Shown piece after piece: positions 19,946 to 30,494 of a DNA stretch of 64,000 nt. A program made the translations under genes and the position numbers. The stretch's first letter is position 1, and the number at the start of each line of letters is the position of its first letter. This stretch comes from Acidobacteriota bacterium (lineage in GTDB: Bacteria; Acidobacteriota; Terriglobia; Bryobacterales; Bryobacteraceae): NCBI GenBank assembly GCA_017304135.1, contig JAFLBB010000009.1:1-64000 (forward strand), given 5' to 3'. The notes beneath the pieces are model-generated. The model saw nothing but the letters and a program-made list of their open reading frames with translations. It was not told the origin of the DNA and did not search any database.

Positions 19946-21160
19946 ATGCGTCGCGTTGCGCTGCTTTTGTGCCTGGTTGCGGTGAGTGCGTTTGCACTGC
20001 AGAAGAAGGCTGCGCCCGCGAAGGGGCCAGCGAAGTCTGCGCCAACGAAGCAGGCTCCAAAGGCCGAGGAACGGGTCGCTGAGGCCGCGCCTACACCTTA
20101 CGAGTTGGGGATGAAGGCCCTGGAGGCGAAGGACTATCCGGGGGCGGTGGCGTCGTTTGAGACAGCGATCGCGGGGGATGATACGGATTACGCCGCGCAT
20201 TTTCATTTGGCGCTGGCGCAGTCGCTGACGGGGAATCACGCGGCGGCGGTGGAGCAGTACCGCAAGACGCTGCGGTTGAAGCCGGGGCTGTATGAGGCTG
20301 AGATCAACCTGGGGCTGTTGCTGTTTCAACAGAAGGACTATGCTGGGGCGGAGCCGCTGTTGAAAGCCGCGGCGGAAAAGAAGCCGGAGAATGCGACGGC
20401 GGTGGCGGCGCATGGGCGGGCGCTGCTGGAGTTGAACAAGCTGGCTGAAGCGGAGACGGTGTTGAAGAAGGCCGTGGCGCTGGATGCGTCGCAGAAAGAC
20501 ACGCTGCTCGGGCTGGCGCAAAAATATGAAGACGCCAAGCAGGTGGACCAGGCGGTTGCGCTCTACAAGGAGTTCCTCGATCGGCCGGGTGTGGCGGAGC
20601 GGTTGGGCAATTTGATGCTCTCGACGGGGCGGACGGGGGAGTCGATTGCGTTCCTGGAAGATGCGGTGAAGACGTCGCCGACGGCGGCGAATCACTATGC
20701 GCTGGCGATTGCGCACTTGCGGAACAAGGATGCGGCGAAGGCGGGCGAGCAGTTTGAACGGGCGGTGGCGCTGGAGCCGCGCAATGCGCAGTTGCGGATG
20801 AGCTATGGCGGGTTTCTGCGCGACCAGCGGAAGATTGCTCCGGCGACGCAGCAGTATTACATTGCCGTGCAGATCGATCCGGCGTTGAAGGAAGGGTGGT
20901 CGGAGTTTGGGGCGATGCTGTTGCTGCTGGAGCAGTATCCGCAGGCGGTGGCGGCGTTTGAGAAGTTGCAGGCGCTAGGCGATGCGCGCGCCCCCGTATA
21001 CTTCTTCAAGGCGATTGCGCTCGACCATATGAAGCAGTTCAAGCCAGCCAAGGAAAGCTATGAGAAGTTTCTCGCCTTGTGCGAGGGCAAGTTTCCGGAC
21101 GAGGAGTTCAAAGCGCGGCAGAGGATTAAAGTGATTGATAAGGAGCTGGCACGGCGATGA
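19946..21160 (+). CDS. Secreted tetratricopeptide-repeat protein
   Basis: A 404-residue protein with a signal peptide (MRRVALLLCLVAVSAFALQ) and a Lys/Ala/Pro-rich linker to about residue 50. About nine TPR units follow, for example YELGMKALEAKDYPGAVASF, AHFHLALAQSLTGNHAAAVE and AEINLGLLLFQQKDYAGAEP. TPR superhelices bind protein partners; the cell location should be periplasmic. A TAGAAT hexamer ends only 6 bases before the ATG, so the mRNA may be leaderless. The stop overlaps the next gene (ATGATG), forming a three-gene unit with two small secreted proteins. Confidence 0.85.
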   Translation: MRRVALLLCLVAVSAFALQKKAAPAKGPAKSAPTKQAPKAEERVAEAAPTPYELGMKALEAKDYPGAVASFETAIAGDDTDYAAHFHLALAQSLTGNHAAAVEQYRKTLRLKPGLYEAEINLGLLLFQQKDYAGAEPLLKAAAEKKPENATAVAAHGRALLELNKLAEAETVLKKAVALDASQKDTLLGLAQKYEDAKQVDQAVALYKEFLDRPGVAERLGNLMLSTGRTGESIAFLEDAVKTSPTAANHYALAIAHLRNKDAAKAGEQFERAVALEPRNAQLRMSYGGFLRDQRKIAPATQQYYIAVQIDPALKEGWSEFGAMLLLLEQYPQAVAAFEKLQALGDARAPVYFFKAIALDHMKQFKPAKESYEKFLALCEGKFPDEEFKARQRIKVIDKELARR

Positions 21161-21591
21161 TGCGGATCTTCACGTGCGCGGTGGCGGTGGCGGCGCTGGT
21201 GATGGCGCAGTCGCCGGTGGAGTCGGCCAAGGCGGAGCCGAACCTGGAGAAGCGTTCGGAGAAGGCGCTGCAGGCGGCGCAGAAGGTGTTGGATGAACTG
21301 CGGCGGAATGGGGACCTGGGTGACCGGGCGGCGGTGAAGTCGGCGCTGGGGGAGATCCGGGCGGGTGTGGAGTTGTGCGTGGATTCGCTGGAGGCGTCGG
21401 GGAAGGACGCGAGGCGGAGTCCGAAGTATTTCAAGAAGGCCGAGATTGGGTTGCGGAAGTTGAACCGGTATTTGGAAGACCTGCGGGTGGCGTTGTCGGC
21501 CGATGACCGGGCTCCGGTGGCGGAGTTGCTGACGTATACGCACCAGGTGCAGGACGACCTGTTGCTCGGCATCTTCACGAAGAAGAAATAG
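21157..21591 (+). CDS. Small secreted helical protein, function unknown
   Basis: A 144-residue protein with a signal peptide (MMRIFTCAVAVAALVMAQ) and an almost wholly alpha-helical, charged remainder (EKRSEKALQAAQKVLDELRR; KKAEIGLRKLNRYLEDLRVA). Its start overlaps the stop of the TPR gene by ATGA. I do not recognise a family. Together with its neighbours it looks like part of a periplasmic complex built on the TPR protein, which is inference from gene order only. Confidence 0.7.
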   Translation: MMRIFTCAVAVAALVMAQSPVESAKAEPNLEKRSEKALQAAQKVLDELRRNGDLGDRAAVKSALGEIRAGVELCVDSLEASGKDARRSPKYFKKAEIGLRKLNRYLEDLRVALSADDRAPVAELLTYTHQVQDDLLLGIFTKKK

Positions 21592-21599
21592 GAGGCCTC

Positions 21600-22241
21600 A
21601 TGCGCGCTTTGCTCATGCTCGCCGCTGCCGTTTGCCTGGCGCAGGGGCAGCAGCGCGACTTTCTCACCGCCGATGAGGTGGACCAGATCCGGCTGGCGCA
21701 GGAGCCGAATCTGCGGTTGACGCTGTATGTGAGCTTCGCCAAGGAGCGCGTGGCGCTGGTGGAGTCACTGGTGGCCAAGGAGAAGGCGGGGCGGAGCGCG
21801 ATGATCCACGACACACTCGACGATTACACGAAGATCATCGAAGCAATCGACACGGTGGCCGACGATGCGCTGCGGCGGGGGGTGGACCTCAAGGAGGGCA
21901 TGGGGGCGGTGGCCGAGGCGGAGAAGGAGTTCGCGGAGCGGTTGAAGAAGATTGAGGAGGCCGAGCCGAAGGACTTGCAGCGATACCAGTTTTCGCTGAC
22001 CAACGCGATTGAGGCGACCGAGGATTCGTTTGAGATGGCTCAGGTGGATTTGCAGGAGCGCAAGGCGGGCGCGGCGCAGCGGCGGGCGGCGGAGGACAAG
22101 GAGCGGGAGGAGTTGATGACGCCGACCGATCGCGAGGCGCGGGAGGCGGCGGCGAAGAAGAAGGCTGCGGAGGAGAAGAAGACGACGCGTAAGGCGCCGA
22201 CGTTGCGACGGAAGAGTGAGGTTCCGGCGACGAAACCTTAA
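21600..22241 (+). CDS. Secreted helical protein, function unknown
   Basis: A 213-residue protein with a signal peptide (MRALLMLAAAVCLAQGQ). The body is helical and acidic in the middle and ends in a Lys/Ala/Glu-rich segment (EAAAKKKAAEEKKTTRKAPT) that is probably disordered or coiled coil. It starts 8 bases after the preceding gene, so it is the third gene of the TPR unit. An AGGAGG-like sequence (ATAGGAGGCCTC) sits just before the ATG. No family recognised. It converges with the DsbD-alpha-like gene, leaving a 13-base gap. Confidence 0.72.
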   Translation: MRALLMLAAAVCLAQGQQRDFLTADEVDQIRLAQEPNLRLTLYVSFAKERVALVESLVAKEKAGRSAMIHDTLDDYTKIIEAIDTVADDALRRGVDLKEGMGAVAEAEKEFAERLKKIEEAEPKDLQRYQFSLTNAIEATEDSFEMAQVDLQERKAGAAQRRAAEDKEREELMTPTDREAREAAAKKKAAEEKKTTRKAPTLRRKSEVPATKP

Positions 22242-22254
22242 GGGGCGCGGAGCG

Positions 22255-22803
22255 CTACTTCACCTGCACGAGCTTTGCGGGGTCGAGTTCGGCTTTGCCG
22301 CCGGGTGTGGCGGCGGGGACTTCGAGGTTCACGTTGATGTTCTTGCAGGTGGTTTCGGTGCAGGCCTGGGCGCGGATGTTGAGTTGGGCGGGGGCGGCGC
22401 CTTCCACCTTGGCGGCGAAGATGGCTTCCTTTTCGTAGCCGTAGCTGAACCAGCGCAGGTCGGGCTTGGAGAAGTCCTTGGGCTGGGGTTGGAGCCAGGG
22501 TCCGGCGAGTTTGAGGCCGCCGGTCACCTTGATTTCAGTCTGCTGGTCGATGCCGAGCGACATCTTACCGGCGAGGCGTTCCTTGGCGCGGCGCTCGTTG
22601 TCCATCGTGAAGGTATGCCAGGTGGGTTCGAGGGCGACTTTGACGACAAGGTAGGGGCCATCGATGCGGGCGCGGTATTGCACGACGACGTCGTCCTGGT
22701 GTGTGACGACGGCGGGCTCGGACCATTCGCCGGCTTGGGCGGAGAGGGCGGCGAGGGCTGCGAGCAATACGGCGGCGAGGGCATTGGGCATGCGCGAACT
22801 CAC
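22255..22803 (-). CDS. Periplasmic DsbD N-terminal (alpha)-like domain protein
   Basis: A 182-residue secreted protein. The GTG at 22803 overlaps the stop of the selenoprotein gene (GTGA); the ATG at 22791 gives the cleaner signal peptide (MPNALAAVLLAALAALSAQA). The mature part fits the immunoglobulin-like DsbD-alpha/DsbC-corrector domain (PF11412-like): VVVQYRARIDGPYLVVKVAL, PTWHTFTMDN, and near the end IRAQACTETTCKNINVNLEV with the two cysteines six apart, where DsbD-alpha has its catalytic pair (typically C..x..C in this strand region). Translational coupling to a thioredoxin-fold CxxU protein makes a shared thiol-disulfide exchange role likely. It lacks the transmembrane and gamma domains of full DsbD. 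Confidence 0.75.
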   Translation of the reverse strand: MSSRMPNALAAVLLAALAALSAQAGEWSEPAVVTHQDDVVVQYRARIDGPYLVVKVALEPTWHTFTMDNERRAKERLAGKMSLGIDQQTEIKVTGGLKLAGPWLQPQPKDFSKPDLRWFSYGYEKEAIFAAKVEGAAPAQLNIRAQACTETTCKNINVNLEVPAATPGGKAELDPAKLVQVK

Positions 22804-24041
22804 TTTCGGAAACTCATCTGGAGCGTGCGCAGGGGCAGCTTGATGCGCTGGCCGTTGCGCAGGACATCCAACTCCACTGTATCGCCGGGCTTCTTGCGCA
22901 AGCGGAGGTAGAGTTCGGCGGTGTGGACGTCGGGGTCGCGGTCGACGCCATCGACGGCGACGATGATATCGCCCACGGCGAGTTCGTGGGTCTTCATGAG
23001 CTTGGCCATGTCGGCGACACGGCGGACCAAGCTGGCGAAGCTTTCGGCGGGCAGGCCGTGCTGGCGTTTTTCATCATCGGTGAGCGGGCGGTCGTCGAAG
23101 TAGACGCGCGGATCGACGCTCGATTGACGCCAGCGGACATCGGTAAGCCACCAGCGTATGGGCAGCGCGATGGTGAGTTCCTTTTCCGTGCCGGCACGCT
23201 CGACGCGGACCTTCACCTGGCGCGCGTTGCGGTCGACCATGTCGTAGGCGTATTGGGCGTCGCCGAAGGTCCACACCGTTGTGCCGTTCCAGCCGCGGAT
23301 GAGGTCGCCGGCGAGCAGGCCGGCCTCGGCGGCTGGTCCGGTGGCTTCCTTCACGACGAGGCCTTTGGGGATGTCGAGGGTGATGCCGATGAGCTTGAAG
23401 TCGGGCGAGCGCCAGAGGTGTTTCTTTTTGTCGAGGCTGCCGTCGAGCTGACGGTGGATGTTCTGGAAGTCGCCGATGAGGTGGCATTCGACGCACTGGT
23501 TCTTGGCGAAGGTGCGTTCAACGAGCAGCGGGTATTCGCGGGCGAACTTGGGCGCGGGGCGCGGGGCGGCTTTCAGTTTGCCCTGCTTCCATTGCTCGTG
23601 GAGATCGAGGCCCTTTTGAAGGGCGAGTTCGAGCGAATCGAGGTTGAGGTAACTGTCGACGGCGGCCGAGTCGCGCCCGCCGTAGCGGGTGTAGATCTGC
23701 TCGTCGGCGTTCATGAGGAAGAAGTAGAGCGGGTTGTTGCGGTCGTATTCGAAGTGGGCGATGTCGACTTCGTCCATGCGGATGATGCGCGCGCACACGT
23801 ATTGCGACATGAGCTTGCCGCGCGGTGAGTTCTTCGGTGACAGCACAACCTGTGCGTCAAAAACACGTCCGGCCGTTCAAGGCTCGCAGCGGTATTCCAA
23901 AAAGATCGGCTTGCCGGTGGCCTTGGCTTCTTTGAGCGCTTCCTGGTAGTTGGAGTGCCAGTGGATGCCTTCGGCATCCTGCGCGGGGAGCGACAATGCA
24001 AGCGCGGCAAGGGCGGGAAGAGCCCGCAACAAGGGGTGCAT
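22800..24041 (-). CDS. Candidate selenoprotein: thioredoxin-fold CxxU, CxxCH motif and two PDZ-like domains
   Basis: Read through one in-frame TGA (23877-23879), this frame gives 413 residues. Residues 1-20 are a signal peptide (MHPLLRALPALAALALSLPA). Then comes a thioredoxin start (EALKEAKATGKPIFLEYRCE), with the TGA as residue 55 in Cys52-Glu-Pro-Sec55, the exact place of the second active-site Cys. The fold continues with VFDAQVV and LYFFLMNADEQIYTRYGGRD. A CVECH motif (Cys183, Cys186, His187) follows, which could bind haem c or act as a second redox site. A PDZ domain at about 215-285 and a PDZ-like domain at about 350-410 end the protein. A SECIS-like hairpin lies just past the TGA. Without readthrough, a GTG at 23846 would give a 348-residue protein with no export signal and half a thioredoxin fold, which is implausible. 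From memory, RefSeq uses a family name of the type Trx7/PDZ (seleno)protein; I cannot check that here. The stop overlaps the DsbD-alpha-like gene. Confidence 0.85.
23829..23864 (-). promoter_or_regulatory. Bacterial SECIS-like hairpin downstream of the in-frame UGA
   Basis: Counting from the base after UGA, bases 22-25 (GCAC) pair with 31-34 (GUGC) around an AGGUU loop. Bases 18-21 (UGAC) pair with 36-39 (GUCA), leaving one bulged U at 35. Below an asymmetric gap, bases 13-17 (GUUUU) pair with 44-48 (AGAAC). The loop starts 26 bases after the UGA, within the spacing known for bacterial SECIS elements, and its AGGU matches the loop of the E. coli fdhF element. SelB binding is inferred. Confidence 0.75.
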
Positions 24042-24072: not shown

Positions 24073-26538
24073 CTACTGCATTTTGCCGAGCCAGCGGATG
24101 CGGACGTTGAAGGCGCGGCCGGTGCCGCCGTAGAACTGGCCGTAGCGGGAACTGGCGATGTTGTTGTTGACGGTGTCGGGGTTGATGCGGTCGGTGAGGT
24201 TGTTGGCGCCGAAGCGGAAGGCCCAGCGGTTGTGGCGGAAGGCGAAGCGGCGTTCGAAGTGAAGGTTCCACTCGAAGTAGACGGGGAAGCGGAGGGCGTT
24301 CACCTGGCCGGTGAGGGAGCCGAGTTCGGTGCGGGTGCTGTAGGGGAAGCCGGTGCGGGTGTCGAGCAGGGTGGCGACGGCCCAGTTCTTGAAAGGCAGA
24401 GGCAGGTAGGCCCAGCCGACGAAGCGGTGGGGCGCGTCCCAGGGCATGGGGCCAGCGTTCTGGAGGACGGAGATGGGGTCGTCCACATTCACGTCGACGA
24501 CGGCGTTGGATTGCGCGCGCGACCAGGTGTAGTTGGCGCGCCATTCGTAGAGGCGGCCGAAGTTTTGTTTGACGGTGAAGGAGAGGGCGCGGTAGCGGTC
24601 GACGCGGTGATTGGTGAGGACGAAGAGTGCGTCGAGGAGAGGGACGCCGGAGGCGGCGAACCAGGGCGGGGATGGCGCGCCGGGTTCGAGGCTGTTGAGG
24701 TAGGTGAAGCCGCGTGTGCCGTGGCGGAAGAGGAGGTCGGCGCGGAGGGCGAGGCTGCGGCGGAAGTGGTGTTCGCCGCCGAGGTTGGCGGTGTTGGCGA
24801 AGGGGCGGCGGAGGGGCGAGAGCGGGCCTTGGAACATGGTGAGGGCGGGGCCGCGGCCGACGCTGCCATCGGGGAAAAAGTAAGAGGTGACGGCGGCCTG
24901 GTCTTCAGGGCGGGAGAAGAGGCGGAGGCTGGTGGCGTCAAAGACACGGGCGAGGCCGCCGTAGATCTTGGTGTGTTCGCCCCAGGGAGGCGACCAGGCG
25001 ATGCCGAGGCGGGGCGAGGGGCTCCAGCGCTTGACGAGCTGATCCCAATCGAGGCGCATTCCGGACTCAACGAGCAGGCTGGGGTGAGCGCGCCAGGAGT
25101 CCTGCAGGAAGACCGAGGCTTCGAGGTTGGTAAGTTGCACCTGGCCGCTGCCGATGAAGCGGGTGAGCAGCAGAGGCGCGCCCTTCTCGTTGAAGTTCTC
25201 GTAGCCGGAGCGTTCGACGTCCTGCTGGTAGCGGACGCGGTGGAAGTCGAGGCCGGCCTTGAGTTGATGCGTGCCTGCGGCGTGGAGGACGGGGAGGAAG
25301 CCGTTGACGAGGAACTGGTCGCGCGCGCCGCGGCGGACGGCGTCGACGAAGTGGTAGCCGCGCTTGCCTTCGGGCGTGTAGAGCAGCGTTCCCCAGCCTT
25401 GCGGGATTTCGCGGCCATAGGTGCGGTTGCCGGCGTAGCCGAACTCGATCAGGCCGTGGCCGCCGAGGTAGATCTGGTCCTTCACGCTGACGAAGCCCTG
25501 GCGGGAGCGGCGGTCGATGGTGGTTTCGCGAGGGTCGAGAAAGGTGAGGCCGGTGCGGGCGGCGGTCCACTGGTTCCAGAGGAAGGAGCTGTGCAGGATG
25601 TGGCTGGGGCTGATGTTGACCTGGGTGGAGAAGAGGTTGCCGACGCGGTAGCTGGGGTTGCGGTCTTCGCCCTTGGGCAGCTCGCGGATGAAGGTCTTCA
25701 TGTACTGGAATTCGAGCGAATCGCTGAACCAGACGCGGCCGCGGCGCAAGGGGCCGGAGAGGTTGACGCGCGGGGTCCAATCGCCGATGGTCCAGCCTTT
25801 GCGGTTTTCAAAGCCGGGGACGAAGTTGGTGGCCGAGTAGCGGAGCTTGTCGGCGCCGGAGTCAGACTGAATGGCGAGGACGCCGGCGGAGCCCTTGCCG
25901 TATTCGGCGGGGAGGACGCCGTTGGCGATGTCGACGGACTGGACGCTTTCCACGGTGAGGCGGGTTTCAAAACGGCCGCTGAGGGGGTCATTGAGCAGGA
26001 AGCTGTTCAGCGTGTAGAGGGTCTGCTCCTCGGTGGCGCCATTGATGTGGAGGCCGCCTTTGTTGTCGCGGATGACGCCGGGGAGGATGCGGAGGGCCGA
26101 GCGGAGGTCGTTCGTATTGGGAAAGGGGATGTTCTGGATGTCGGCGCCGGCGAGGGCCTGCTTGGGCGTGGAGGTATCCATGTCGATGGTGAGGGGCGCG
26201 GCGCCGACCTCGATGGATTCGACCACTTCGCGCACGGGCTCCAGGGTGAAACTGGAATCGGTCCCGCCATCGGGGAGCTCAAGCGGCTCGTTGCGCACGG
26301 GATAGAAGCCGGCGCGTTCGATATCGAGCGTGTAGGGGCCGGGTGCGGGGAGGTCGATGCGGAAGTTGCCTTCAACCTGGGTGAAGGTCTGGTGGGAAGC
26401 TCCACCGGCTCCGCGCAACGTGAGGCGCGCGCCGGCAATGGGCGTTTTGGTGGACGACAATACCCGGCCCGATAATGGGACCTGTGCCGCGAGCGGAGAC
26501 AGGATCCCGATCGAGACCAACACAACGGCGAACCGCAC
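24073..26538 (-). CDS. TonB-dependent receptor with carboxypeptidase-regulatory-like domain
   Basis: An 821-residue outer-membrane receptor. The signal peptide is MRFAVVLVSIGILSPLAAQ. Then come a carboxypeptidase-regulatory-like domain (PLSGRVLSSTKTPIAGARL to about residue 95), a plug (NDLRSALRILPGVIRDNKGG; LPAEYGKGSAGVLAIQSDSG) and a beta-barrel. It is shorter than the receptor at 5042-8251 and ends in RIRWLGKMQ, without the usual terminal Phe/Trp. It ends 31 bases ahead of the selenoprotein ATG on the same strand, yet a TAGAAT hexamer in that gap suggests separate transcription. Divergent from mutY. Confidence 0.9.
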   Translation of the reverse strand: MRFAVVLVSIGILSPLAAQVPLSGRVLSSTKTPIAGARLTLRGAGGASHQTFTQVEGNFRIDLPAPGPYTLDIERAGFYPVRNEPLELPDGGTDSSFTLEPVREVVESIEVGAAPLTIDMDTSTPKQALAGADIQNIPFPNTNDLRSALRILPGVIRDNKGGLHINGATEEQTLYTLNSFLLNDPLSGRFETRLTVESVQSVDIANGVLPAEYGKGSAGVLAIQSDSGADKLRYSATNFVPGFENRKGWTIGDWTPRVNLSGPLRRGRVWFSDSLEFQYMKTFIRELPKGEDRNPSYRVGNLFSTQVNISPSHILHSSFLWNQWTAARTGLTFLDPRETTIDRRSRQGFVSVKDQIYLGGHGLIEFGYAGNRTYGREIPQGWGTLLYTPEGKRGYHFVDAVRRGARDQFLVNGFLPVLHAAGTHQLKAGLDFHRVRYQQDVERSGYENFNEKGAPLLLTRFIGSGQVQLTNLEASVFLQDSWRAHPSLLVESGMRLDWDQLVKRWSPSPRLGIAWSPPWGEHTKIYGGLARVFDATSLRLFSRPEDQAAVTSYFFPDGSVGRGPALTMFQGPLSPLRRPFANTANLGGEHHFRRSLALRADLLFRHGTRGFTYLNSLEPGAPSPPWFAASGVPLLDALFVLTNHRVDRYRALSFTVKQNFGRLYEWRANYTWSRAQSNAVVDVNVDDPISVLQNAGPMPWDAPHRFVGWAYLPLPFKNWAVATLLDTRTGFPYSTRTELGSLTGQVNALRFPVYFEWNLHFERRFAFRHNRWAFRFGANNLTDRINPDTVNNNIASSRYGQFYGGTGRAFNVRIRWLGKMQ

Positions 26539-27672: not shown

Positions 27673-29037
27673 ATGAGCATTCCTCACAACGCGAAAATTG
27701 TTTTTTGGGGCCGGATGGCGGCGATTGCCGCCGTGGTTCCGATCATGATTTTGGGCTTTTCGGATGGGCCTGATCCGAGACACACCGGAGCCCCCGGCGA
27801 TCAGACCTGTGCCAAGGCGACGTGTCATGTTGGAACGGGCAATCCGACGGCGGGCAGCGGTGTGGAACTCGTCTTTCCCGGTGGGCTTGTATACACTCCC
27901 GGCGTGAAGCAGACCATCACGGTCCGTGTGACGGAATCCGCCAACGTCTACGGATTTCAGGCAACGGCACGACTGGTCTCCAATCTAGCCAATGGCCAGG
28001 CGGGCGATTTCACGGTGACCGACGCCAGAGTGCAGATCCTGTGCGAGGACGGCCGGCCTAAGACCGGAAGCCAGGCGTGCCGCCCTGAAACGCCGATTCA
28101 GTTTGCAGAGCACACGTTGGGCGGCAATCGCAGCAATACGTGGACATTCGATTGGACACCGCCGGCCACCAACATGGGCGACATCAATTTTTATGTCGCC
28201 GGGAACGCTGCCAATGGAAACGGCACGGAAAGCGGTGACCGGATTTTCACACGCAACTACACGCTGACGCCGCAGGCGGCCACCAGCGAGCAGCCGCAGA
28301 TCCGGCAGACGCAGCCGGTGTTGCAGGCCTTCCTGGGCGGAGCGCGGCTCTCGCCGGGGACATGGCTGGAGATCTACGGCTCGAACTTCTCGGCCGTGAC
28401 GAAGGACTGGGGCGGGCTGTTCACCGAGAACGGGACCAAAGCGCCGACGTCGATTGACGGGGTGAGCGTGAATATCGACGGCAAGCCGGCGACGATGTTC
28501 TTCCTGAGCCCGTCGCAGATCAACGTACAGGCGCCGGATACGATCGGGTTGGGCACGGTGCAAGTGGAGGTGGTGACCCCGGCGGGCCGGGTGAGCACGA
28601 CGGCAACCTCAACCGCCGTTTCGCCTGCCATGCTGACCACGCCGGCCTTCAATATTGGCGGCAAGCAATATATCGCCGCGTTGCATCAGGGCACGCCGGT
28701 GACGTTTGTCGGTCCGGCCAATCTGATTCAGGGCGCGAATTTCCGTCCGGCCAAGCCGGGCGACGTGGTGACGGTATACGCGGTAGGCTGCGGTGTAACC
28801 GAACCGGCCAGCCCGTCGGGCGTGGTGGTTTCGGCGCTGCGCACGCCGAAAGCGGCGCCGCGGGTGACCATCGGGCAGGCGCAGGCGAACGTGGCCGTGG
28901 CCATGTCGCCGGGTTCCATCGGGCTGTGCCAGCTCAACGTGACGATTCCGAATACGGCAAATGGCGATAACCCGATCGAGTTCACGCTCGACGGGACGCC
29001 GACAGGGCAAGGACTGCAAATCACAGTCCAGCAGTAA
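27673..29037 (+). CDS. Secreted protein with CX4CH site, choice-of-anchor-like domain and TIGR03437 C-terminus
   Basis: A 454-residue exported protein. After a membrane-type signal (AAIAAVVPIMILGF) comes an N-terminal domain starting TGAPGDQTCAKATCH. It resembles the bacterial reelin/choice-of-anchor V domains that begin with a CxxCH, but here the cysteines are Cys46 and Cys51 with His52 (CX4CH). The domain runs through YTPGVKQTITVRV and NTWTFDWTPPATN. From about residue 225 a TIGR03437 domain follows (GGARLSPGTWLEIYGSNFS, PSQINVQAPDTIG, VVTVYAVGCGVTEP), a C-terminal fold highly expanded in Solibacter relatives. The role is unknown; likely cell-surface or periplasmic. The upstream spacer holds two copies of CAAATTTA (27610 and 27628), 18 bases apart. 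Confidence 0.82.
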   Translation: MSIPHNAKIVFWGRMAAIAAVVPIMILGFSDGPDPRHTGAPGDQTCAKATCHVGTGNPTAGSGVELVFPGGLVYTPGVKQTITVRVTESANVYGFQATARLVSNLANGQAGDFTVTDARVQILCEDGRPKTGSQACRPETPIQFAEHTLGGNRSNTWTFDWTPPATNMGDINFYVAGNAANGNGTESGDRIFTRNYTLTPQAATSEQPQIRQTQPVLQAFLGGARLSPGTWLEIYGSNFSAVTKDWGGLFTENGTKAPTSIDGVSVNIDGKPATMFFLSPSQINVQAPDTIGLGTVQVEVVTPAGRVSTTATSTAVSPAMLTTPAFNIGGKQYIAALHQGTPVTFVGPANLIQGANFRPAKPGDVVTVYAVGCGVTEPASPSGVVVSALRTPKAAPRVTIGQAQANVAVAMSPGSIGLCQLNVTIPNTANGDNPIEFTLDGTPTGQGLQITVQQ

Positions 29038-29108: not shown

Positions 29109-30494
29109 ATGAATTACCGTTTCCAACGGACACTATTTGTCTGTTTACTCGCCGCACTGCCGGCCAGCCTGATGGCGCTCAGCAATGGGCCCGTGCCGGC
29201 GCGCACGGGCGCGGCTGTCGATGGCGGGTTGAGCTGCACGGCATGCCATCGCATCAATGCCATGGCGCCTGAAGGGGGCGCGACGGCGAATATGGATGCG
29301 CGCGGCAGTTTCCGGGTCGAAGCCGGGCCGTACACGCCGGGCGTGAAACAGACCATTCGCATCGTTTTGTCGCATCCGGAAGCCCGGCGCTGGGGCTTCC
29401 AGATCACGGCGCGGCTGGTGTCGGATGAAACCAAGCCGGGGGGCAAGTTCACGCCCGCGGAGGGCTACCGTGTGGTGTGCGGCGGGGGTGCACCGGAGGG
29501 CAACTGCGGCGCCAATCCGGAATTTGTCGACCATGTGCGCGAGACAACATTCGCGGGCCAGGGCAATGGAGCGTCGTGGACGCTGGAATGGACGCCGCCG
29601 GCCACCGGTTCGGGCGAGGTTGTGTTCTACGCCGCCGGCAACGCGGCCAACAACAACAACAACAACCAGGGCGACTTCATCTATACGACGAACACGAAGA
29701 TCGCCGAAGCCGCGCCGTGCAACCTGACGACGACGCCCGCGGTGACGACGGTGTTGAACGGGGCCAGCTTCCGTAACTCGGGCTTCGCGCTGAACACGAT
29801 GCTCTCCATCGGCGGCACGGGCTTCCAGGCGCCGGGCACGAGCAAGACGGCGTCGGCCACCGACATCGTCGGCAACAAGTTCCCGACAGCGCTTTCCTGC
29901 GTGGCCGTGGAGATCGACGGCAAGCAGGCCCCGATCACCTATGTGGATGCCAGCCAGATCAACGTGCAGGCGCCGACAACGGTGGCCCTGGGCGATGTGG
30001 CCGTGCGCGTGATTCTCAATCCGGGCACCTCGAACGAGCGGCGCAGCGCACCGTTCACGATCAAGATGGACGATGTGGCGCCGGCGCTGTTCCGCTTCCT
30101 GCCGACGCCGTGCGTGGCGGCCATCTTCCCGAACACGGGCGTGCTGGCGGCCGATCCGGCGCTGGTGCCGAACTCGGTGAAGCCGAAGGTCGGTGAGATT
30201 GTGAGCATCTTCGCCACGGGGCTGGGTGTGTCCGAACCGGTCTACCAGTCCGGTGAGATCACGCCGGGCAACATGGCGCCGCGAGCACGCGACCAGGTGC
30301 AGGTGGAGTTCAACGGCGTTGTGATGAATGCCTCCGACATCCTGTACGTGGGGTTAACGCCGGGCTCGATCACGGGGTTGTGGCAGATCAACCTGCGCGT
30401 TCCGACGACAGCGACACCGGGGCGGGATAACCCGATCACGCTGCGGATGGGCAGCCTGACGTCGCAGCCGGGTGTGTTCCTGCCGATTCAGTAG
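29109..30494 (+). CDS. Secreted protein with CxxCH site, choice-of-anchor-like domain and TIGR03437 C-terminus
   Basis: A 461-residue paralogue of the preceding protein, with the same two-part layout. The signal peptide is followed by DGGLSCTACHRINAM, where Cys43, Cys46 and His47 form a canonical CxxCH. The region YTPGVKQTIRIVLSHPEARR to WTLEWTPPATGSGEVVFYAA matches its neighbour. A short Asn run (ANNNNNNQGD) follows, then the TIGR03437 domain (GASFRNSGFALNTMLSIGG; DASQINVQAPTTVALG; IFATGLGVSEP). A purine-rich stretch (AAAGGGGAGGGG) precedes the ATG, and a small hairpin (about 29051-29075) lies in the gap after the first gene. Tandem duplication is likely. Confidence 0.83.
   Translation: MNYRFQRTLFVCLLAALPASLMALSNGPVPARTGAAVDGGLSCTACHRINAMAPEGGATANMDARGSFRVEAGPYTPGVKQTIRIVLSHPEARRWGFQITARLVSDETKPGGKFTPAEGYRVVCGGGAPEGNCGANPEFVDHVRETTFAGQGNGASWTLEWTPPATGSGEVVFYAAGNAANNNNNNQGDFIYTTNTKIAEAAPCNLTTTPAVTTVLNGASFRNSGFALNTMLSIGGTGFQAPGTSKTASATDIVGNKFPTALSCVAVEIDGKQAPITYVDASQINVQAPTTVALGDVAVRVILNPGTSNERRSAPFTIKMDDVAPALFRFLPTPCVAAIFPNTGVLAADPALVPNSVKPKVGEIVSIFATGLGVSEPVYQSGEITPGNMAPRARDQVQVEFNGVVMNASDILYVGLTPGSITGLWQINLRVPTTATPGRDNPITLRMGSLTSQPGVFLPIQ

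Follow-up and report, generated by a model that had tools for sequence, protein, structure and literature searches.

A Trx7/PDZ selenoprotein gene and its DsbD-alpha-like neighbour in an acidobacterial genome

The window analysed here, a 64,000-nucleotide stretch of DNA from a member of the Acidobacteriota, contains on its minus strand a gene of 413 sense codons with a single internal TGA codon, which is almost certainly read as selenocysteine (Sec), as judged from the comparisons presented below. By its profile score, the product is a member of a selenoprotein family that is already present in the databases. The protein is best explained as a secreted Sec oxidoreductase, a DsbD-gamma-like carrier that would act together with a DsbD-alpha-like partner, with PDZ domains for docking and a probable heme, and we estimate the probability of this reading as a whole at about 0.6. 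The features referred to in the text are the following.

22800 to 24041, minus strand: selenoprotein gene of the NF041199 family, 413 amino acids plus a terminal TGA stop
23982 to 24041, minus strand: signal-peptide-like segment, residues 1 to 20 (MHPLLRALPALAALALSLPA), predicted from the sequence itself
23679 to 23969, minus strand: Thioredoxin_7/DsbD-gamma-like domain, residues 25 to 121 (PF13899, hhalign, structural model)
23888 to 23886, minus strand: Cys52, first position of the CxxU motif
23877 to 23879, minus strand: UGA for putative Sec55, the second redox-active position of CxxU, C-E-P-U (codon reads in homologues)
23839 to 23858, minus strand: putative bacterial-type SECIS hairpin, GAC-GCAC-AGGUU-GUGC-U-GUC (synonymous-site freeze, covariation, Cys-homologue control)
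23481 to 23495, minus strand: CVECH, Cys183 to His187, candidate covalent heme-c site (111 of 111 homologues)
23163 to 23390, minus strand: PDZ domain 1, about residues 218 to 293 (PF13180; matches to the PDZ domains of DegP, DegQ and RseP)
22830 to 23027, minus strand: PDZ domain 2, about residues 339 to 404 (second stretch of PF13180; DegP-like 22kg_A over residues 329 to 404)
22255 to 22791, minus strand: partner gene for a secreted-looking DsbD-alpha-like protein with the motif QACTETTC, C-x4-C (PF11412, fold match, synteny)

Decoding of the internal TGA codon

The reading frame starts with an ATG codon at 24041 to 24039, is read down to position 22803, and ends with the terminal TGA at 22802 to 22800. 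The internal TGA is codon 55 (23879 to 23877, as read in the frame) in the context ...GKPIFLEYRCEP-U-TAGRVFDAQ..., and it was the sole return of a window-wide scan for TGA codons that lie beside Cys or Gly motifs and within long frames whose GC3 profile is coding-like. The first-pass annotation had described one in-frame TGA interrupting a continuous frame at 22800 to 24041, located at the second position of the active site; the coordinates were right, the strand, which it left unstated, is minus, and the TGA was found at the same position in every homologue in which the codon was read. A plus-strand reading of the same segment was rejected, as it contained internal stops and was antisense to the conserved frame, and a plasmid origin was likewise rejected since no match was obtained. 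Standard gene finders would call two frames at this locus, the downstream frame being 348 amino acids long, and standard annotation would split or truncate the gene with loss of the active site.

The annotation had interpreted the TGA as a Sec codon, and all of the components of the Sec system were identified in the host genome, which is a draft of 353 contigs: tRNA-Sec (anticodon UCA, 69.3 bits), selA (488 bits), selB (287 bits, a fragment at the end of a contig) and selD (312.6 bits), with the scores for the 3 protein-coding genes above their cut-offs. The selD gene contained an in-frame TGA of its own at the usual Sec site (...HAKAAG-U-ASKLSP...; L015:1392-1394, G000:C236), and by its sequence SelD is likely to be a selenoprotein as well. 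It was also noted that the frame of selD shifts by one base about 110 bases past this TGA, which splits the match and is perhaps due to an indel in the assembly.

Long homologues of the protein were present in 42 of 200 genomes sampled from the host's family, and all 42 contained an in-frame TGA. The codon itself was read in 30 of these homologues, retrieved as loci, as well as in additional loci, with an identical position every time, and both halves of the gene were conserved across the TGA with identities of 57% to 80%. In the 200-genome sample, tRNA-Sec was identified in 40 of the 42 genomes with a homologue versus 115 of the 158 others (Fisher p = 0.0014), and the 2 homologue-bearing genomes in which it was missing were only 85% and 74% complete. 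An assembly error was ruled out as the source of the TGA, since the same codon was found throughout the relatives, and no indel and no TGC or TGT codon was seen at this position among relatives from the phylum of the host. The residue at position 55 was Sec or Cys in all homologues and never an unrelated one; the Cys variants that the annotation had proposed to look for were represented by 12 CxxC homologues, 10 of them in genomes with no detectable tRNA-Sec. Two homologous loci, L042 and L049, contained an extra in-frame TAG in addition to the Sec TGA, at the codons matching residues 170 and 193, respectively, which could represent sequencing errors, pseudogenes or stop read-through.

The putative SECIS hairpin starts 21 nucleotides past the U of the UGA codon, and the pattern GAC-GCAC-AGGU(U/C)-GUG(C/U)... 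was found from this same point onward in every acidobacterial gene. The mean frequency of the commonest codon was 0.94 at codons 62 to 69, as compared to 0.61 in 118 other columns with conserved residues, and none of 100,000 random draws was as high. In 63 Sec-form genes from the Planctomycetota the stem was maintained through many compensatory pairs, such that 83% of the stem cells paired, versus 31% to 46% in registers slid by 1 to 3 bases, 23% in the 12 CxxC homologues, and none of 2,000 shuffles reaching 83%. In a control for synonymous codons, the mean z was between −1.0 and −1.4 for the Sec groups and +0.1 for the CxxC group (p = 0.0004 for Sec versus CxxC within the Planctomycetota). 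On this comparative evidence the hairpin is under selection in the Sec forms and absent from the CxxC homologues. Matches to Rfam families in the region were at the level of chance.

Taken together, the complete set of tRNA-Sec, selA, selB and selD, the conserved TGA, the hairpin and the presence of Cys homologues mostly in genomes without tRNA-Sec argue for the Sec reading. A reading of the TGA as a normal stop codon, as a sequencing error or as a sign of a decaying pseudogene, with the 348-amino-acid frame as the real gene, would agree with the 2 frames called by gene finders and with the draft state of the genome, but is extremely improbable given the TGA in every homologue codon read and in all 42 long matches within the family, the conservation of both halves, the selected hairpin and the loss of the active-site strand that it would entail. 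It is just as improbable that an alternative code assigns the TGA to Trp, Cys or another residue, because other genes end at TGA, as does the selenoprotein gene itself, because the full Sec system and the SECIS hairpin are present, and because Cys occupies the position in genomes that mostly have no tRNA-Sec. We therefore retain the Sec reading.

Active-site variants in the Planctomycetota

Of 392 Planctomycetota genomes, 128 matched the family profile with E <= 1e-15, and 109 of these scored over the family cut-off. A profile-based census in which 75 planctomycete genes were read by codon gave 41 UxxU, 22 CxxU, 12 CxxC and 0 UxxC forms, proportions that are not unbiased since the sample went down the score list and many rows without a TGA were left out. 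In this phylum, tRNA-Sec was identified in 53 of the 62 Sec-form genomes versus 2 of the 12 CxxC-form genomes (p = 6e-6), and one of the latter 2 genomes, G747, also contained a paralogue with 2 TGA codons. The 9 Sec-form genomes in which tRNA-Sec was not found with a strict filter (G873, G846, G807, G782, G935, G847, G837, G757 and G805) may represent incomplete assemblies, divergent tRNA-Sec genes or loss of the system. Two to four family paralogues with differing numbers of TGA codons, for example none and two, were observed in G658, G747, G638, G873, G881 and G751.

The UxxU genes, which include L064, L065, L077, L080, L086 and others, contain 2 UGA codons located 9 bases apart, both of them upstream of a single SECIS-like hairpin of the family type, the loop of which is located 28 nucleotides from the U of the second UGA and 37 nucleotides from the U of the first. 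State changes on a tree, inferred by a quick search and counted without direction, numbered 2 at the second site (position 55) versus 15 at the first site (position 52), so that the C-terminal Sec is stable and the N-terminal Sec labile. With CxxC, CxxU and UxxU in one and the same fold, and a covarying SECIS element in the Sec forms only, the family is unusually well suited to comparative work on the reasons for Sec use at each of the 2 positions in the CxxC motif, and on how one hairpin decodes 2 closely spaced UGA codons.

Domain architecture and relationship to known families

The protein matched the NCBIfam family NF041199 (trx7_PDZ_seleno, "Trx7/PDZ domain-containing (seleno)protein") with 439.9 bits (cut-off 300), over residues 27 to 405 and positions 2 to 389 of the 390 in the profile, and showed no difference of its own from this family. 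It is the RefSeq family of similar name to which the first-pass annotation referred. The protein had also been called undescribed, which does not hold for the family, since its database entry is already that of a curated selenoprotein; the partner gene, the invariance of CxxCH and the high frequency of UxxU forms, in turn, were not mentioned in the part of the literature covered by our searches. The family has been tabulated with CxxU and one Sec in a 2026 review (PMC13188914), and a "PDZ domain-containing protein, Thioredoxin_7, CxxU" is listed in PMC9312934. A marine survey from 2021 reported a "Putative serine proteinase MucD (CxxC/U) fused with a PDZ domain" (PMC9402790), which is similar in having Sec or Cys at CxxC/U next to a PDZ domain and could be this family under a different name; it was referred to there as a serine proteinase, whereas the protein in the window contains no protease domain.

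The signal-peptide-like segment was modelled as a helix over residues 7 to 15, with low confidence. An AlphaFold model of the whole protein (pLDDT 93.5, pTM 0.88) predicted a thioredoxin fold, a helical segment with CVECH and 2 PDZ domains. The thioredoxin domain, modelled with a pLDDT of about 95, scored 27.2 bits to PF13899 (Thioredoxin_7; cut-off 27), and its alignment by hhalign to the DsbD-gamma domain encoded by the host genome itself had a probability of 96.6%, with CxxU placed over CTNC. The invariant positions in an alignment of 72 sequences (A1) were W28, R51, 52 (Cys/Sec), 55 (Cys/Sec), C183, C186, H187, P213, G219, D261 and W297. The CVECH site noted in the first-pass annotation was borne out by the comparison, with CxxCH being present in 111 of 111 homologues and its His as invariant as the 2 Cys residues. 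A fold search of the PDB with the whole model gave HtrA- and RseP-type proteins only among the best 50 matches, through the PDZ regions, and no trypsin-like protease domain was identified, the matches being confined to those same regions.

Other thioredoxin-like selenoproteins, namely Trx_VPGUxxT (NF041382 and NF041383) and TsoB (NF045694), showed weak similarity over residues 15 to 66, with 13 to 20 bits against cut-offs of 275 to 805, and differ in motif and architecture. The magnetochrome protein MamP carries CxxCH and resembles the window protein in combining this motif with PDZ in one secreted protein, but it has no thioredoxin domain, and the match of 39 bits (cut-off 300) covered the PDZ domain only; the window protein is thus not a member.

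The partner gene and a proposed redox relay

The gene for the partner protein, of about 178 amino acids, starts 8 nucleotides past the stop codon of the selenoprotein gene on the same strand. Of 37 acidobacterial loci, 35 contained a homologue of the partner downstream of the selenoprotein gene and in the same orientation, adjacent in most of them and 0.4 to 0.7 kb further on in 4, and the 2 Cys residues (QAC-x4-C) were present in 35 of 35. The partner was retained even in L049, from a distant family, where the other synteny is gone. PF11412 (DsbD_N) matched 20 of 31 partner members, the copy in the window being 0.5 bit under the cut-off, and the model of the partner (pLDDT 93.5) was matched by Foldseek to ScsB-N and DsbD-alpha (1jpe, 1jzd and 1vrs, the last of which is an alpha-gamma complex). 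The 2 proteins thus resemble DsbD and ScsB in sequence and fold, the thioredoxin domain corresponding to DsbD-gamma and the partner to DsbD-alpha or ScsB-N. They differ in being 2 separate, secreted-looking proteins, neither of which has a transmembrane beta domain, and in that the gamma-like protein bears Sec, CxxCH and PDZ domains; DsbD/CcdA-type genes are located elsewhere in the host genome. The finding of a conserved partner turns a protein of unknown function into one half of a testable redox pair.

In the mechanism that we propose, tRNA-Sec and SelB would insert Sec at UGA55 with the aid of the hairpin at 23858 to 23839, for which the support is comparative, and the protein would be exported to the periplasm. 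The exported fold is predicted with high confidence to consist of a DsbD-gamma-like thioredoxin domain with the Cys52/Sec55 couple, a helical CxxCH module and 2 PDZ domains. The protein would most likely serve as a selenol/thiol carrier in the periplasm, in which the couple alternates between a selenenylsulfide and its reduced form and exchanges electrons with Cys143/Cys148 of the partner, by analogy with DsbD-gamma and DsbD-alpha. The PDZ pair could bind clients or partners by their C-termini. A c-type heme is probably attached at CxxCH, where it would either connect the couple with the respiratory chain or act as a sensor of that chain. Since the host genome also encodes a complete DsbD with alpha and gamma domains of its own, the selenoprotein and its partner must do something extra. 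No partner gene was found beside the planctomycete homologues in 75 loci with flanks of about 1.5 kb, and the relay as described may therefore hold only in the Acidobacteriota.

The invariant CxxCH, a motif that is the signature of heme-c attachment, and the genes for c-type maturation in the host genome (ccmC-type and CcmF/CcsA-type) make heme c a candidate, which we infer rather than assign because no cytochrome family was matched in searches of NCBIfam, Pfam and PDB folds. A TGA within a ccm match at C135 was considered as a further selenoprotein and rejected, being the ordinary stop of a ccmB-like gene that precedes ccmC. It is quite conceivable, if short of an even chance, that the selenoprotein is instead a two-centre dithiol/selenol relay in which CxxCH serves as a further pair of thiols or as a site for a metal: such motifs can also bind metals or act as dithiols, the module has no recognised cytochrome fold, and the residues flanking the motif are not conserved as they would be in a known cytochrome domain. 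However, a plain dithiol would not need the His that is invariant in all homologues, the maturation genes are present, and His148, kept in 95 of 111 homologues, is a possible distal ligand. A c-type heme site is a more likely reading of the motif than a simple dithiol. Small oxidants or metal(loid)s are the direct substrates of many Sec oxidoreductases that have been characterised, and the ScsB-N and DsbD-alpha folds that the partner resembles deliver electrons, which would suit a selenol-dependent reductase or peroxidase acting on such substrates, with the partner merely as electron supplier; this we consider unlikely, as no peroxidase family was matched and 2 PDZ domains in tandem speak for clients that are proteins. 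The carrier that exchanges electrons with its partner and bears a probable heme remains our preferred reading.

A broader interpretation, which we offer tentatively and at less than even odds, is that the Trx7/PDZ family represents a dispersed, selenium-upgraded DsbD relay. A secreted protein of the gamma-like kind, equipped with Sec, heme c and docking PDZ domains, would in the Acidobacteriota be paired with a free DsbD-alpha-like protein. In the Planctomycetota its active site would be UxxU, which could form a diselenide. There would have been about 15 gains or losses of the N-terminal Sec, with the C-terminal Sec kept and one hairpin serving 2 UGA codons.

Directly upstream of the selenoprotein gene, on the same strand, is a gene for a TonB-receptor-like outer membrane protein (24073 to 26538, minus strand). 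This adjacency was retained only in the 2 other genomes of the same genus, and the TonB-receptor-like gene and the genes at 19946 to 22241 were rejected as members of the unit, being conserved only within the genus. Two neighbouring genes on the plus strand, at 27673 to 29037 and 29109 to 30494, encode secreted-looking proteins of similar layout with an N-terminal CxxCH (CAKATCHVG and LSCTACHRIN, respectively), and from these motifs both are candidate heme-c proteins in the vicinity of the selenoprotein.
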